A stretch of 39,445 bases of DNA from Minisyncoccota bacterium. GTDB taxonomy: Bacteria; Patescibacteriota; Minisyncoccia; Phycocordibacterales; UBA918. The position numbers and the translations under genes were made by a program. Shown here piece by piece: positions 6,734-30,698 of this stretch. The notes below the pieces were generated by a model. The model searched no databases and was not told the DNA's origin. It was given only the letters and a program-made list of their open reading frames with translations. Numbering within the stretch: position 1 is the stretch's first letter; each line of letters starts with the position of its first letter. Location: positions 13,965-53,409 of the forward strand of contig JALHRC010000007.1 in NCBI GenBank assembly GCA_022841645.1, given 5' to 3'.

Positions 6734-6835
6734 CGCAACTACGATAACATACAGTGCTAAGGGGTGCCCCTATAGAAAGGCATGGCCCGTTTTTGCACAA
6801 ACAAAAACAACCCTCCCGGGTTGCATTTGGTGCTC

Positions 6836-7040
6836 GCGGAGGATGTGAGATTCGGTCACTCTCATGGATATTTTATATCGCCCTGCTCATAAAATATCTC
6901 ATTCGCTCGACCCCCACTCGGGCGTTCCGCTCCGCGGGCTTTGTGCGCCCTCGGTTCGAATCTCACTCCCTCGCGCTCGCACAAACAAAAACAATCCTAT
7001 GCGGATTGTTTTTGGTGCTCGCGGAGGGAGTGAGATTCGG
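6836..7040 (-). repeat. tRNA-tail element A1 (core family 1)
   Basis: Both ends carry a direct copy of the tRNA-Ser(ACT) 3' end: 6836-6855 is identical over 19 nt to 8757-8775, and 7021-7040 is a near copy. Read on the minus strand: tRNA end, terminator hairpin (CAAAAACAATCC/GGATTGTTTTTG), inverted tRNA end (6953-6975), a core with GGGGTCGAGCGAATGAGA, the hairpin GATATTTTA/TAAAATATC, GAGAGTGACCGAATC, then the next tRNA end. A further terminator-like hairpin follows at about 6797-6830. Same core as elements B and C. Confidence 0.75.
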
Positions 7041-7251
7041 TCACGAATCACTAAGTATAATCATGCACTGCGTGCAGATTCTACTAAGTGTTCGCGACCC
7101 CGGCTTGGCCGTTTTTACTCTAGGAAGAGTAAAAGCATGTCTGTGCCTTTCGAATCTCACCGCGAGTGACATCGGTCACTCGCTCATCCCCCGCGAACAA
7201 AAATGGCACCCTGGTGGGTGCTCATTATTGTATTCGCGGAGGATGTGGGAT
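7021..7251 (-). repeat. tRNA-tail element A2 (core family 1, different hairpin)
   Basis: It is bounded by tRNA-Ser 3' copies at 7021-7040 and 7236-7251. On the minus strand there is a GCACCC/GGGTGC terminator-like hairpin, then an inverted tRNA end split by an 8-bp hairpin (CGAGTGAC/GTCACTCG, about 7161-7181). A core follows that keeps the GGTCAC and GCGACCCC flanks of family 1, but its internal hairpin sequence differs from A1. Confidence 0.65.
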
Positions 7252-7302
7252 GACGTTCGGCTAGTGATAATAGGTCAGGGAGACTACTAAATTACGAAAT
7301 GA

Positions 7303-8166
7303 TTACGGATTACACCACTGACACTCTCCAGGTTCAGCCGAGTTTTTATTTTCTATGGGTTGGGTTTCTTGATAACTACATTTTTTACAACAACGTACTG
7401 TTTCTTTTACCAAATCGGTGGCTAACCCACAGCCATTACAAGGCAATCCCTTAACTACATCAGTAATAACAAAACCAGGAGTAGTGCATTTTGGGCATAT
7501 ACTTTTGCAGTTTTTTATGAGGTCAAGGGTAGCTTGCTTGATACCGTCCATTCGCTTTGGGCAACGGTGGGCTCGCATATCTGTTTCGATAAAAACAGAC
7601 TTGGTGCTCCATTTTAATAAAAGCTTTTCAGACATTGTCCGCAAGTCGTCCTCTGTAGTAATTTCCTTGTAGATGTGTCTACTGCTCGTTTCTGACTGCC
7701 TCAAAATAACTCCTTGTTTTGGAAAACCCCACGAGCAAGCGACATCCACAGCTTCTTCGGGAGTATGTACAATTTGACTTCGAACTTGTGAGTTACTGTT
7801 ACGGAAATGCCCGACAATTTCCAAATCATTTTTGATATCAATTAACACTACAATTTCAAGGTTACTTTGGACAAAAGGAATTGTAGGATGATTGCCGAAG
7901 CTGCCTTCGCTAGAAAACCCTAAATCCATCCCTGTTAGCATCATTGCTGCTTGAGCTTTTTTTCGAGCAGCTTCAAGTTGATTACCCGTCCGCTTTATAT
8001 CTCTTGTAAACGTACCAAAGCGGTCAGTATTAAAATCGTGAGGAACTGTAATGGTAATACCGAGTCCCTCTTTTAATATAGGGGAAATAACACTTTCCTT
8101 ATTATGCATTGTAGCCAGAACACCCGTTCTTTTTTCCCAATCCCCAATAATGTCCGTTGATGGCAT
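7303..8166 (-). CDS. DUF6671-like protein with C-terminal zinc ribbons (287 aa)
   Basis: The N-terminal 190 residues read like the DUF6671 family as I recall it: ATMHNKE.VI.P, DTDRFGTFTRDI-type segment, EAARKKAQAA, GSFG.HP.IPF and an RHRCPKRM-like motif (here RAHRCPKRM). The last 70 residues hold several CxxC pairs (CPKC, CNGC, CKKC, CQWC), suggesting two zinc ribbons. No catalytic function is established for the family to my knowledge. TATAAT lies 6 nt before the ATG, so the mRNA is probably leaderless. It is the distal gene of the tRNA-Ser islet and its codons are AT-rich compared with the host core genes. Confidence 0.75.
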   Translation of the reverse strand: MPSTDIIGDWEKRTGVLATMHNKESVISPILKEGLGITITVPHDFNTDRFGTFTRDIKRTGNQLEAARKKAQAAMMLTGMDLGFSSEGSFGNHPTIPFVQSNLEIVVLIDIKNDLEIVGHFRNSNSQVRSQIVHTPEEAVDVACSWGFPKQGVILRQSETSSRHIYKEITTEDDLRTMSEKLLLKWSTKSVFIETDMRAHRCPKRMDGIKQATLDLIKNCKSICPKCTTPGFVITDVVKGLPCNGCGLATDLVKETVRCCKKCSYQETQPIENKNSAEPGECQWCNP

Positions 8167-9032: not shown

Positions 9033-9128
9033 ACACGGAGAAGTGTCAGAGTGGATGAAAGGTGCTGGGAGCACGTTTCATCCGACTGAAGGGAGGAGGA
9101 CGATCTTAGCGATCACTCTGACACTTCG
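9033..9128 (+). repeat. Upstream copy of the tRNA-Ser(GCT) 5' end with inverted partner
   Basis: 9033-9054 repeats exactly the 22 nt at 9135-9156 (4-nt flank plus acceptor 5' strand and start of D-arm). A 12-bp hairpin (about 9055-9079) follows, and then an inverted copy at 9114-9127 complementary to 9040-9053 over 14 nt. The inverted copy is equally complementary to the real tRNA 5' end (9142-9155). Confidence 0.7.
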
Positions 9129-9138
9129 AAGTGGACAC

Positions 9139-9225: not shown

Positions 9226-9425
9226 CGAGCACCAAAAGCACACCAGGCATGGTTGCTTTTACGTGTGCGAGCGCGAGGAGGAGGGATTCGAACCGAAGCG
9301 TCGGGGACCCGACCGTAGCGAAGCGGAGGGTGGGCGACGCAAGTGGGGGTCGAGCGAATGAGATATTTTTGAGCAAAGCGAAATAAAATCTCCATGAGAG
9401 TGACCGAATCTTACATCCCTCGCAG
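9226..9425 (+). repeat. tRNA-tail element B (core family 1)
   Basis: After tRNA-Ser(GCT): terminator-like hairpin (AAAAGCA...TGCTTTT), inverted T-arm/acceptor copy (about 9270-9292), then a core with GGGGTCGAGCGAATGAGA, the AT-rich hairpin and GAGAGTGACCGAATC, ending in a tRNA-3'-like TTACATCCCTCGC. Its reverse complement aligns along its length with element A1. The right end resembles the tRNA-Ser(ACT) tail more than that of its neighbour. Confidence 0.7.
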
Positions 9426-9445: not shown

Positions 9446-9529
9446 GCTGGAGTGGCGAAATTGGTACACGCGCTACGTTCAGGTCGTAGTGGGGGCAACC
9501 CCGTGGAGGTTCAAGTCCTCTCTCCAGCA
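9446..9529 (+). tRNA. tRNA-Leu(CAG)
   Basis: Type II, 84 nt: acceptor GCTGGAG/CTCCAGC, anticodon arm CTACG-TTCAGGT-CGTAG (anticodon CAG), variable arm GGGGGCAACCCC, T-arm GGAGG-TTCAAGT-CCTCT. Discriminator A, CCA not encoded. It is followed by two tandem tRNA-tail elements. Confidence 0.95.
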
Positions 9530-9685
9530 CAAATAAACCGAAGGTTTTTGATGATAGAAGAGAGCACGACACTAAATGTGTCGTGCGTAGGGCTTGAAGC
9601 CCGATTGAGCTGGATTGGGAGCGAAGCGAACCAATCCAGCCAATTGGGGTACTGAACCTGTAAGGTTCAAGTCCTCTCTCCAGCA
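9530..9685 (+). repeat. tRNA-tail element D (core family 2)
   Basis: It ends at 9663-9685 with a 23-nt exact copy of the tRNA-Leu 3' end (9507-9529). Inside are a 9-bp hairpin (GCACGACAC/GTGTCGTGC), an inverted T-arm remnant (GGGCTTGAAGCC) and a core whose 10-bp stem GCTGGATTGG/CCAATCCAGC is nearly identical to element E downstream of tRNA-Asp. Confidence 0.75.
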
Positions 9686-9887
9686 TAGCACCATGAGCAC
9701 AGCGAATACGCTGTGCTGGAGAAACAAAGCCCCTGCGGGCTTTGTGTGAGGACTTGAAGCACCGGAGCTTGTGTTTTGCGACCGCAAGGAGCAAAACACG
9801 CGAGGTGCCGACCAAGAACGCGAGTATTTTTGTGAGTCGTAGACGAAACAAAAATCCGCGATTCTGGGTCTAGTCTCTCTCCAGCAC
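9686..9887 (+). repeat. tRNA-tail element F (variant core)
   Basis: It ends with AGTCTCTCTCCAGCAC at 9872-9887, a one-base-deleted copy of the tRNA-Leu tail. The inverted tRNA tail (TGCTGGAG ... AGGACTTGAA) is split by a GC hairpin (about 9722-9746). Hairpins GTGTTTTGC/GCAAAACAC and ATTTTTGT/ACAAAAAT fill the core. Long minus-strand open frames here are artefacts of the repeat. Confidence 0.65.
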
Positions 9888-9905
9888 AGCGAAGCAGAGG
9901 AAGGC

Positions 9906-18698: not shown

Positions 18699-19148
18699 AT
18701 GATTCAAACTCTACGCGAACGCGGCTTCACGCTCATCGAGCTCCTCGTCGTTATCGCAATTATTGGTATTTTAGCAGCGACGGTGTTGGCGGCACTAGGT
18801 ACTGCACGAAGTAGTGGTAATGACGCCTCGGCAAAAAGTAGTGCCAATTCATTTAAAGCGCAGGCTGAGCTTATTTACACTACGGCAAATTCATACGCCA
18901 CGGTTTGTTCGAACGCATCAACCACAGCTCTTCGCTCGGCGATTACCAACAACGACGCTGATACTGATATGTCAAATGATGCAACGCAAACCGCGGGTAA
19001 TACTGTCTGTAATGATGATGTTAATGGTTACGCGCTTAGTGTGGCACTCAACAACACCGCTGGAGGTAACTTCTTCTGTGTAGATAGCTCTGGCAATAGC
19101 ACAACCACAAATGCTCTGCTCTCCCCTGGCACTGATATTAGCTGTTGA
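18699..19148 (+). CDS. Type IV pilin (major pilin candidate 1)
   Basis: A short basic leader MIQTLRERG precedes the prepilin cleavage site G|FTLIE and the hydrophobic helix [20 protein letters not shown], the class III signal of type IVa pilins. The mature protein is about 140 residues with four cysteines (VCSNAS, TVCND, FFCVD and the terminal SC), consistent with two disulphides in the globular head. Glu5 of the mature protein is present. It is followed by a strong terminator and a second pilin with an almost identical N-terminus. PilD encoded downstream would cleave and methylate it. Confidence 0.93.
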   Translation: MIQTLRERGFTLIELLVVIAIIGILAATVLAALGTARSSGNDASAKSSANSFKAQAELIYTTANSYATVCSNASTTALRSAITNNDADTDMSNDATQTAGNTVCNDDVNGYALSVALNNTAGGNFFCVDSSGNSTTTNALLSPGTDISC

Positions 19149-19234: not shown

Positions 19235-19654
19235 ATGAAACAAAAAGGCTTCACGCTCATCGAGCTCCTCGTCGTTATCGCAATTATTGGTATTTTGGCA
19301 GCGACGGTCCTTGCTGCGCTGGGAAGGGCGCGTGAAAGCGCGGTTGAAGCGAAGATAAAATCAGAGATGAATAGTATTACAAAGCAAGCGGCACAAGTGG
19401 AGTCGGTGGCGTTTACTTACGACGAGGTGTGCGGCACAAACGGGTATACCCAAAACGCCCAAATAGTAACCTTGATTGCTGCTATTGAAACATCTACTGG
19501 TGCAGATACCGTTGTGTGCAGTAGCTCCCCCGGGGCGTTTGCTCTCTCGGTGCCACTTGGAGGCGTGCACTGGTGTGTGGACAACGAAGGAACAGCGCGC
19601 GAAATTAGTGCCGCTATTATTGAAAACGCAGACTTTGCTTGCCCAGCATCGTAG
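19235..19654 (+). CDS. Type IV pilin (candidate 2)
   Basis: The leader MKQKG is followed by |[19 protein letters not shown], the same signal and helix as the upstream pilin. 62 nt (19247-19308) match 18723-18784 at 61 positions, including synonymous sites, after which the sequences diverge quickly. The head again has four cysteines (EVCGT, VVCSS, HWCVD, FACPA). It probably arose by duplication with continuing gene conversion of the signal/helix segment. It has its own promoter and a preceding terminator, so the two pilins can be expressed separately. Confidence 0.93.
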
Positions 19655-27930: not shown

Positions 27931-27991
27931 GCGCCGTCGTCATTTGTGGTGTACCCTCATAGCACTCGTTTGCAGCTGCGAAGTAATTTTA

Positions 27992-28045
27992 GGGGGGTAG
28001 AGGAGCGGTATCGAGCGGAAGAATTATTCTGTCTCATAACCTCCC
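27992..28045 (+). pseudogene. tRNA-fMet fragment upstream of the intact gene
   Basis: 27992-28010 matches 28088-28106 (tRNA 5' part) at 18 of 19 positions, and 28034-28045 repeats CTCATAACCTCC, the anticodon loop and 3' stem strand. The 5' anticodon-stem strand and the T-arm are missing. It is a broken tandem copy about 96 bp upstream. Confidence 0.65.
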
Positions 28046-28086
28046 CTGAGATCGCTAAAAAGTGATGTGAGAGTAAAAATGAATAT

Positions 28087-29109: not shown

Positions 29110-29790
29110 ATGGCTAAAACACAGGAAAAGGGGAGAGCTGTGAAGATGAGGCGACAGGGCGTAAGTATTAAAGATATTGCCACTCAGGTCGGGGTCTCTC
29201 CGGCAACAGTTAGCATATGGTGTCAGGATATTTTGCTTACCAGAGCCCAGAAAGAGAAGTTGTTTAAAAAGCAGATTGCGGCTGGACACAAAGGTCGCAT
29301 GATTGGCGCTCTCAAAAATAAGCAGATGAGGCTGCAGAATGTGGCTAATCAGGCAGTGATAGCACAGAGGCGTTTGGGAGGACTTTCCGCCCGTGACCGG
29401 TTTCTTTTGGGGATTGGTCTCTACTGGGGTGAAGGGACAAAGAGCCGTCAATCTGCAACGGCGATAGTAAATTCAGACCCGGACATAGTGCTTTTTGCTC
29501 GTGATTGGTTTGAAAATCTGGGGGTCAATCGATGTGACTTTCGGGTTTACGTATCGATTTCTTCTCTCCATAAGGAACGGGAAATAGCAATTGTTAATTT
29601 TTGGTCTCGTACTTTGGCCATACCAAGGCAGCAATTCAACCGGGTCACCTATTTTAAGACAGCACGAAAAAAGGTTTACGAAAACCACGATTCGTATTAT
29701 GGTATTGTGGCTTTGCGCGTACGAAGGGGAACTGACCTGAAATATATGATTTTAGGTCTTATCGATGCGTGTAAGGTATTGCCGGGGTAG
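29110..29790 (+). CDS. HTH plus LAGLIDADG-like protein ending inside tRNA-Met
   Basis: The N-terminal helix-turn-helix (VKMRRQGVSIKDIATQVGVS then PATVSIWCQ, residues 11-38) is of the resolvase/HTH_23 kind. After a basic linker, residues 100-111 (LGIGLYWGEGTK) resemble a LAGLIDADG motif, with Glu in the catalytic acid position. The rest alternates strands and helices as in single-motif homing endonucleases. The last codons GCC-GGGG-TAG region are shared with tRNA-Met: the stop codon TAG is U8-A9-G10 of the tRNA. A paralogue with the same arrangement is at 38574-39273. Nuclease function is inference. Confidence 0.7.
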   Translation: MAKTQEKGRAVKMRRQGVSIKDIATQVGVSPATVSIWCQDILLTRAQKEKLFKKQIAAGHKGRMIGALKNKQMRLQNVANQAVIAQRRLGGLSARDRFLLGIGLYWGEGTKSRQSATAIVNSDPDIVLFARDWFENLGVNRCDFRVYVSISSLHKEREIAIVNFWSRTLAIPRQQFNRVTYFKTARKKVYENHDSYYGIVALRVRRGTDLKYMILGLIDACKVLPG

Positions 29791-30003: not shown

Positions 30004-30294
30004 GCGGGCGTAGCTCAGCTGGTTAGAGCGCTTCCCTGTAGCAATGCAGCTTTCTGTCGAAATGGCAGATTGAAACTTTCCGGGATATCGGTGAAGGCTA
30101 AGTCTTGTAATGAGATATGCGAATACCGAGGGAACCCCATACACACAAACACATAGTGTGGGGGCGCCGTAGAGACTAGATACCGGAACACCTACAAGCA
30201 CATATGCTCACGGTGAAGATATAGTCCATGCCGTTATGAAAATAGCGGATTACATGCACGGAAGAGGCCGAGGGTTCGAGTCCCTTCGCTCGCG
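30004..30294 (+). tRNA. tRNA-Asp(GTC) interrupted by a group I intron
   Basis: Exon 1 (30004-30039) ends in CTTCC-CTGT and exon 2 (30257-30294) begins CAC-GGAAG, so splicing yields a perfect anticodon loop CTGTCAC (anticodon GTC) and a 74-nt tRNA. The acceptor is GCGGGCG/CGCTCGC with one G.U and the T-arm is GAGGG-TTCGAGT-CCCTT. The intron sits between positions 35 and 36. CCA not encoded. The tRNA 3' end is copied twice downstream in tRNA-tail elements. Confidence 0.9.
30040..30256 (+). ncRNA. Group I self-splicing intron in tRNA-Asp (217 nt)
   Basis: The 5' splice site follows a U paired with G of the internal guide (CTGT with GCAG, forming P1). P7 can be drawn as GACTA of GTAGAGACTAGATA with TAGTC of the S element AAGATATAGTCC. 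A GC hairpin (CCCCATAC...GTGTGGGGG) fits P6, and the intron ends in G (30256). Size and site type fit the compact subgroup IC3 introns of bacterial tRNAs. There is no ORF inside. Confidence 0.85.
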
Positions 30295-30296
30295 CA

Positions 30297-30461
30297 GGCA
30301 AAAACCGCCAAAAGGCGGTTTTTGTGTGCGGGCGAAAGTGTTGGTGTGGGACACCAACACGTGGGACTCGAAGCCCGATTGAGCTGGATTGGGAGCGTAG
30401 CGAACCAATCCAGCCAATTGGGGTACTGAACCTGTAAGGTTCGAGTCCCTTCGCTCGCGCA
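30297..30461 (+). repeat. tRNA-tail element E (core family 2)
   Basis: It starts with a terminator hairpin (30300-30324). Then comes an inverted tRNA-Asp tail split by a hairpin (TTGGTGT...ACACCAA) and the family 2 core (stem GCTGGATTGG/CCAATCCAGC) nearly identical to element D. It ends at 30438-30461 with a 24-nt exact copy of the tRNA-Asp 3' end (30273-30296). Confidence 0.75.
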
Positions 30462-30698
30462 AGACAATGAGGCCGGCACGTTAGTGCCGGCCGATTGTGT
30501 TTTGCGACGGTGTGAAGGGGCTCGAAGGGCGAAGTCGGGGGTCCCTCTGGGCCGACTAGCCGGGGTCGATCGAATGAGGTTTTATGAGACGAAGTCGAAG
30601 TAAAACCCATGAGAGTGACCGAGTCCCTTCGCTCGCGCACGAAAAATATCCCCGTAATGGGGAATTTTTTGTGCGAGCGAAAGTATCGGTGTGGGACG
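30462..30698 (+). repeat. tRNA-tail element C (core family 1) plus truncated follower
   Basis: GGGGTCGATCGAATGAGG, a GGTTTTA/TAAAACC hairpin and GAGAGTGACCGAGTC place it with elements A1 and B. Its direct tRNA-Asp tail is at 30620-30639 (20 nt exact). A further terminator (about 30641-30671) and a partial inverted tail (GTGCGAGCGAAAG...GGGAC) show the start of another, truncated unit. Confidence 0.7.

Follow-up and report, generated by a model that had tools for sequence, protein, structure and literature searches.

A putative family of small non-coding mobile elements at gene 3' ends in Paceibacteria, with ends that may be copied from the host gene

Introduction

Behind the tRNA-Asp(GTC) gene of a 39,445-nt stretch of DNA from a Minisyncoccota bacterium (the window, as this whole stretch is called below) there are two short elements, E and C, whose central parts recur in the same stretch behind other tRNA genes, and whose ends are copies of the tail of tRNA-Asp. 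This raises the question of whether such elements are mobile or gene-converted units with ends adapted to the gene that hosts them, as was claimed from a reading of the sequence alone, or whether they descend by simple duplication from a single tRNA locus. The elements of the window, which are assigned to three families according to their core, and the tRNA genes that host them are the following.

30004–30295, plus strand: tRNA-Asp(GTC), host of E, with exons 30004–30039 and 30257–30295 (ARAGORN, introns allowed)
30040–30256, plus strand: group I-like intron of 217 nt in the anticodon loop of tRNA-Asp(GTC) (ARAGORN; Rfam Intron_gpI with 47.9 bits, E 2e-9, just below the gathering cut-off of 50)
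30273–30296, plus strand: tail 1, the own 3' tail of tRNA-Asp, GGTTCGAGTCCCTTCGCTCGCGCA (repeat family D1)
30297–30324, plus strand: terminator-like hairpin separating tail 1 from element E (sequence and fold)
30325–30461, plus strand: element E, family 2 (R1 model match at 30361–30454, 104.3 bits, E 5e-25), consisting of anti-tail (30325–30336), inserted hairpin P0h (30338–30360), T-arm part of the anti-tail (30363–30371), core and tail 2
30372–30442, plus strand: core of E, with the P2/P3 hairpin, a conserved TACT linker and P4, GAACCT-GTA-AGGTTC (covarying structure)
30438–30461, plus strand: tail 2 of E, GGTTCGAGTCCCTTCGCTCGCGCA, copy of the tRNA-Asp tail
30512–30639, plus strand: element C, family 1, with anti-tail GTGAAGGGGCTCG, a core containing GGGGTC...GTGACC, and a tRNA-Asp tail (fold z −4.2)
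30640–30698, plus strand: hairpin and truncated start of another unit, GTGCGAGCGAAAG...GGTGTGGGAC (sequence only)
9446–9529, plus strand: tRNA-Leu(CAG), host of D
9562–9686, plus strand: element D, family 2, with a tRNA-Leu tail (R1 match at 9587–9680, 102 bits; fold z −8.1)
9745–9890, plus strand: second unit behind tRNA-Leu, with a family 3 core and a tRNA-Leu-like terminal tail, CTCTCTCCAGCA (read from the sequence)
9275–9425, plus strand: element B, family 1, behind tRNA-Ser(GCT), with a 5' arm that fits Ser(GCT) and a tail of the Ser(ACU) type
6815–6930, minus strand: element A1, family 1, with a tRNA-Ser(ACU) tail

Shared cores and host-adapted ends

Elements D and E have the same core, which contains the 10-bp stem GCTGGATTGG/CCAATCCAGC and lies at a constant offset of 20774 (D 9597–9660). 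The sequence-only reading had predicted that identity between the two would drop at the tRNA-derived ends, and the alignment shows such a drop, with 63 of 64 identical positions in the core, 7 of 10 in the 5' arm and 18 of 25 in the tail. Outside the elements, identity is 19/60 upstream and 20/60 downstream, which corresponds to the chance level (32–33%); judged by this alignment, the flanks of D and E are unrelated. The end of E had been assigned to tRNA-Asp and not to tRNA-Leu, and in fact 30438–30461 is identical to 30273–30296 over 24 nt; since this is an exact copy located 165 bp from its source, a chance match is excluded. D ends with 23 nt of the tail of tRNA-Leu(CAG), so that 9507–9529 is repeated at 9663–9685. 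The composition proposed for C was also found, namely a tRNA-Asp tail of 20 exact nt (30620–30639) joined to the family 1 core, which in the alignment is common to A1, B and C with short indels.

The tail of B matches that of tRNA-Ser(GCT) at only 10 of 17 positions and is instead of the Ser(ACU) type, as in A1. B therefore keeps a foreign tail, and the adaptation of the ends is not universal. A feature that the earlier reading did not mention is that in each element the tail of the same tRNA is also present in inverted form, as the 5' arm; together with the direct copy at the other end, this makes the adaptation two-sided.

Anti-tail, predicted folding and strand

The inverted copy, or anti-tail, is TGCGGGCGAAAG + GTGGGACTCGAA in E; in D it reads GAGAG + AGGGCTTGAA. 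Each of the two is complementary to the tail of its own tRNA, and in both elements the P0h hairpin interrupts it at the boundary between the acceptor and the T-arm. The predicted fold of E is a single structure of −84.4 kcal/mol (z −9.3) that comprises the arm helix, P0h, the P2/P3 hairpin, the TACT linker and the P4 hairpin with its GTA loop. On the other side, tail 1, the terminator hairpin and the anti-tail are predicted to form one long hairpin of −78.1 kcal/mol (z −9.2); both folds being comparably stable, the anti-tail would have two alternative pairing partners. In 39 of 48 informative units the acceptor side of the anti-tail is a better match for tail 1 and its 3' flank, and in 1 of the 48 for tail 2 and its flank. 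At tRNAs that have no tail copy the anti-tail is mostly missing as well, which indicates that the unit brings both arms with it.

A covariance model of the D/E core, built from 25 units, has compensatory (double) changes in 21 of its 29 pairs. Among 3510 pair cells, taken from an alignment that was fitted to this model and is hence biased towards standard pairs, 90.7% are Watson-Crick, and G-U is more frequent than A-C (127 versus 63). The excess of G-U over A-C indicates that it is the gene-sense strand that folds into the selected structure, and such a structure fits an RNA or single-stranded DNA of that strand.

Attachment to tRNA genes and evidence for movement

Ninety-six of 120 distinct copies follow a tRNA gene on its own strand, 20–260 nt downstream (median 70), and their hosts cover 33 tRNA types; none of the 120 was found upstream of or opposite to a tRNA gene. 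The other 24 have no tRNA within 300 nt, and some of these are degraded. Tail 2 equals the local tRNA tail over 17 nt in 39 of the 54 units that could be scored.

Several genomes contain units with the same core and different arms. In G030, the units at Tyr and Leu(CAA) have 100% identical cores, with arms AAGGATTTGAA/TTCAAATCCTT against GAGGGAGTCGAA/TTCGACTCCCTC, all differences being confined to the arms, both of which match the local tRNA. The Lys and Leu units of G002 also have 100% identical cores and arms that differ likewise, and in the genome of the window the cores of the Asp (E) and Leu (D) units are 98% identical. The mean core identity is 0.48 for the same tRNA in different species and 0.53 for different tRNAs; measured in this way, core similarity is independent of tRNA identity.

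The locus formed by a gene for an HTH protein, tRNA-Gly(GCC) and an oriC/parS-like region carries a unit in six genomes (G000, G001, G005, G020, G022 and G032). At the same locus no unit was found behind tRNA-Gly in seven others (G007, G016, G024, G030, G031, G033 and G034), and the clearest of these empty sites consist of the tail and one hairpin, without an anti-tail. Mobile elements are generally recognized by the recurrence of one sequence at sites that are not orthologous and by relatives in which a site is empty, and both signs are found here. The cores of the relatives and the presence or absence at tRNA-Gly(GCC) thus support the earlier view that these are mobile units and not descendants of one tRNA locus.

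Units behind protein genes

Units are also present behind fusA, lepA and rplK (identified with Pfam), where again the end of the gene is repeated. In G000 the last codons of fusA exist in three copies that all read KDVEEEA* and have synonymous differences only. The lepA tails read KSD*, KSD* with a serine codon of the other family (TCA versus AGT), and ESD*. Units of fusA with a recognizable second tail were found in G000, G009, G011 and G015, and many other species of the genus are without them. In the fusA and lepA tails there are 18 synonymous versus 6 nonsynonymous codon changes (P 4e-9 against neutrality), in a test that covers few loci, counts per codon and uses a frame for tail 2 chosen by homology. 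rplK was excluded from this test because its tails differ in length; they show 1 synonymous and 3 nonsynonymous codon changes. The tail 2 peptides of fusA resemble tail 1 of their own genome, even though this C-terminus varies widely between species. The duplicated protein tails are under coding constraint, with the protein sequence mostly kept. The anti-tail of protein genes often begins at the stop codon, so that the gene end and the anti-tail form a tight hairpin.

The homing of a donor tail, in which tail 1 would be imported from another species, was considered and is weakened; compared by eye, tail 1 of fusA in G000 is most like the native tail of a sister species, and the tail 2 peptides fit their own genome.

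Search for a partner enzyme

None of the transposases, integrases or reverse transcriptases tested as candidates tracks the number of elements. A reverse transcriptase domain (RVT_1) is present in 9 of 28 genomes and was not found in G030, which has 32 elements, nor in G044, G045, G048 and G056. The Y1 transposase, which IS200/IS605 or REP elements would need in trans, is missing from 8 of the 28, including G044 with 18 elements; among the carriers without it are G002, G007, G016, G020, G022, G034 and G044, with 3–18 elements. Cas1 (PF01867) is found in one genome and missing from 27 of the 28, and the tyrosine recombinase (PF00589) occurs mostly once per genome regardless of copy number, with five in G036, which has 0 elements. 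CCA follows tail 2 in 6 and tail 1 in 2 of 58 listed units, an excess that is not convincing for retro-copying of a mature tRNA.

A protein with HTH and LAGLIDADG-like parts, always encoded beside tRNA genes, was rejected as a partner, given that it was not found in several element-rich genomes. In the window, an HTH protein with a GLYWGEG motif is encoded at 29110–29790 on the plus strand; its family profile matches the homing endonuclease I-DmoI (E 0.001), and the 28 homologous copies examined, of which this genome has five, are all neighbours of a tRNA gene, mostly 20–180 nt upstream of it and on the same strand. The HTH/GLYWGEG proteins are possibly a family of tRNA-gene homing endonucleases; the structure predicted for the HTH protein is of low confidence (pLDDT 61), and its fold matches are meaningless.

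Neighbouring and related sequences

Elements that look like mirror images of the units are located at the 5' ends of tRNA genes, where they repeat the head of the tRNA, consisting of the acceptor and the D arm, with a break at the GG of the D-loop. They were seen in the window (9033–9138 and 27981–28086), at L073 (4038 and 7055), L035 and L027, upstream of tRNA-Ser, Met, Trp, Tyr and Glu, and several of them are followed by an ATGAAA...TTTCAT hairpin. Pseudogenes of tRNA-Arg and tRNA-Glu with an element core inside the T arm lie beside the intact gene (L132, about 1160–1320; L027, about 1110–1500), and the tRNA-Glu pseudogene has in addition a 5'-type element in its D loop.

Larger units were found at L084, L089, L081, L076, L077 and L035, in which the family 2 core is flanked by a hairpin module of family 3 (GGAGC...GCGAG) and by a hairpin with GTGAGAAG...CTTCGCAAGACC; from their sequences, the element families look like modules of one architecture. 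A common sequence, GACGCGTCGA...GGTCAAG...CTTGACCGT...TTCTNGCCCGAG, is present at L123, L126 and L136 about 100–200 nt before an orphan element that has no tRNA, with a protein gene on its other side, and a search of Rfam with it was negative. In the window, a gene for a DUF6671 protein (7303–8166, minus strand, E 9e-59) lies between tRNA-Ser(ACU) and its array of tail copies (6815–7260), and is possibly the cargo of a larger unit. Two adjacent ORFs (18699–19148 and 19235–19654) have in common a repeat of 86 nt (87%), which in translation resembles the N-terminus of a type IV pilin.

Proposed mechanism

The explanation that we prefer, and that we consider probable though well short of certain, is that Paceibacteria (Parcubacteria) harbour a family of small, non-coding mobile elements, to which E, C and D belong and which reside at gene 3' ends and capture the ends of their host genes. 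The units measure about 90–350 nt, and their hosts are chiefly tRNA genes and occasionally fusA, lepA or rplK. Each unit would consist of the anti-tail, which is the inverted 3' end of the host, a structured core, folded as a three-way junction of the gene-sense strand, and tail 2, a fresh direct copy. It is proposed that the core is the moving part and that the 3' end of the new host gene is copied in both orientations around the arriving core; the insertion would be harmless, given that the gene keeps its own end (tail 1). The arms may arise by copying at insertion, with the anti-tail templated by tail 1 and its 3' flank in the manner of a fold-back copy, which would explain the extension of the anti-tail into the sequence that flanks tail 1. 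The presence of P0h inside the anti-tail is something that simple fold-back copying does not explain. The active form would be RNA or single-stranded DNA of the sense strand.

The evidence for the movement itself is comparative, and two considerations speak against copying at arrival: the foreign tail of B, and the fact that gene conversion together with quasi-palindrome correction could produce adapted arms. The preferred explanation also has against it that none of the candidate enzymes follows the copy number and that 24 of the 120 copies are without a tRNA within 300 nt. A further proposal, which we hold to be rather doubtful, is that the units represent a self-mobile and protein-free class of ribozyme-like or intron-like RNA, whose anti-tail would be an internal guide copied from the target for insertion, and possibly splicing, where tRNA genes and genes of translation end.

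Alternative explanations

Since the duplicated protein tails stay under coding constraint, the most interesting rival is an intron-like unit that is excised from RNA (or DNA), joining the gene body to tail 2; the anti-tail would then be an internal guide, comparable to that of group I introns, that pairs with tail 1 in the unspliced state or with tail 2 in the spliced one. The predominance of synonymous changes in fusA and lepA, the triple KDVEEEA* of G000, the two codon families used for the same serine and the likeness of the tail 2 peptides to tail 1 of their own genome all agree with excision, as does the fact that the anti-tail is common to two mutually exclusive and very stable predicted folds. 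Nevertheless, all host genes found are already intact through tail 1, which makes a restoration needless; three of the four changed rplK codons are nonsynonymous, the acceptor differences in the tail 2 of tRNAs pair with the tRNA 5' strand in 5 of 13 cases, approximately as random bases would, and the units are short and without similarity in Rfam to group I or II introns. This possibility is consequently regarded as unlikely, albeit to be reckoned with.

Dedicated mobility could also be dispensed with, if segmental duplication or recombination over short homology spread the units and if gene conversion by the adjacent tRNA, together with quasi-palindrome (template-switch) correction, homogenized the arms. 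In their T-arm parts, GGANTCGAA / TTCGANTCC, the arms are near-universal, which allows units from any tRNA to pair and recombine behind a different one, and both the foreign tail of B and the tandem units, which repeat the flank too, speak for such events. However, recombination of the RecA type over 9–10 nt of homology is rare, the flanks of D and E are unrelated, the fully adapted arms in G030 with zero core changes would require that conversion stop at the arm boundaries every time, and units are found behind fusA, lepA and rplK, genes that have no T-arm; we therefore think it an unlikely account. Of the earlier suggestion that the elements are gene-converted, what stands concerns the ends only: an adjacent tRNA that converts tail and anti-tail could cause or help their adaptation. 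A conserved functional RNA of the host, such as a tRNA-like decoy or an RNA for 3'-end processing, would account for the strong covariation on the gene-sense strand, the strict downstream orientation at tRNA genes and the re-formation of tRNA-like acceptor and T-arm helices, but is made very improbable by the presence and absence of units at the same locus, the range of 0–32 copies per genome, the lack of orthologue conservation at a given tRNA and the units behind protein genes. The least credible of these explanations, to which we give hardly any weight, is that the units are what is left of an integration at gene 3' ends, of the integrase or casposase type and accompanied by a duplication of the target site, as in genomic islands and casposons: the set of targets is casposon-like (PMC4046053) and the gene end is directly duplicated, but Cas1 and the tyrosine recombinase are distributed as described above, no coding capacity was seen in the units, and a target-site duplication leaves the inverted copy unexplained. 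The casposon version is largely refuted, and a tyrosine recombinase that acts on a folded single strand is possible.

Distribution among relatives

A BLAST search with the core of D was positive in 31 of 59 relatives, spread over 9 of 25 genera, and the covariance model detected the family in 26 of 27 chosen related genomes, with 1–32 copies each. The class-wide search with the covariance model gave only 7 positive genomes out of 113, a count obtained with stricter filters than the 26 of 27. The exact core pattern was found in 39 stretches when 84,980 species genomes were searched. The carriers with a name are MAGs of Patescibacteria (Kaiser-, Taylor-, Zambryski-, Nomura-, Vogel- and Ryanbacteria, and other Parcubacteria), a few records being titled only 'bacterium'; the search for viral carriers was negative, with no exact core pattern found in viral contigs. 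Given that the carriers are independent MAGs, an assembly artefact is very unlikely.

At least 26 relatives carry copies that were missed by all the annotation resources tested, and these copies can be a source of error in the annotation of tRNAs and in assemblies of Patescibacteria. Should the ends be copied at insertion, the units would have a harmless way of entering essential genes without a fixed target sequence; should the tails become joined to the gene at the RNA level, the units would be a very small splicing element of a new kind.

Comparison with known systems

A search of Rfam 15 with the units gave only tRNAs at the gathering threshold, other matches being far below the gathering scores of their families. 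No prior description of these elements was found in the literature on tRNA in Patescibacteria, ribozymes, RNA motifs and mobile elements at tRNA ends, in a search of open-licence papers only, which makes it weak evidence; the best reading is that the family had not been described before. To our knowledge, no described transposon, intron or repeat has a shared core enclosed by host-specific ends in both orientations.

Casposons are found at the 3' ends of tRNA and aEF-2/EF-G genes, where the gene is left intact and the target end is directly duplicated (PMC4046053). The units have in common with them the 3' end of a tRNA or EF-2/EF-G gene as the target and its direct duplication; however, casposons are DNA transposons with Cas1, PolB and terminal inverted repeats, whereas the units are gene-free and the host tail is also inverted. 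Theta ribozymes are small structured RNAs located directly 3' of many phage tRNA genes, which are HDV-like and cleave at the end of the tRNA (PMC10879173). They share their position with the units, which differ in being a three-way junction closed by the copied tRNA tail, 20–260 nt away from the gene.

The tyrT repeats of E. coli, which give rise to rtT RNA, are repeats downstream of a tRNA gene that each contain its 3' tail, and they concern one locus and one tRNA, a restriction that does not hold for the units and their many tRNA types; we know of no inverted copy in these repeats, of no mobile core that they share between tRNAs, and of none behind protein genes. MITEs and REP palindromic repeats are short, non-coding, multi-copy and hairpin-forming, with ends that are specific to the element, in contrast to the units, whose ends are specific to the host gene and which are strictly attached to gene 3' ends. 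As to group I introns, the units resemble them in carrying a sequence complementary to the gene at the insertion point, in the manner of an internal guide sequence, and differ from them in that they are without the group I core (P3–P8), are as short as about 92 nt and leave the host gene uninterrupted.
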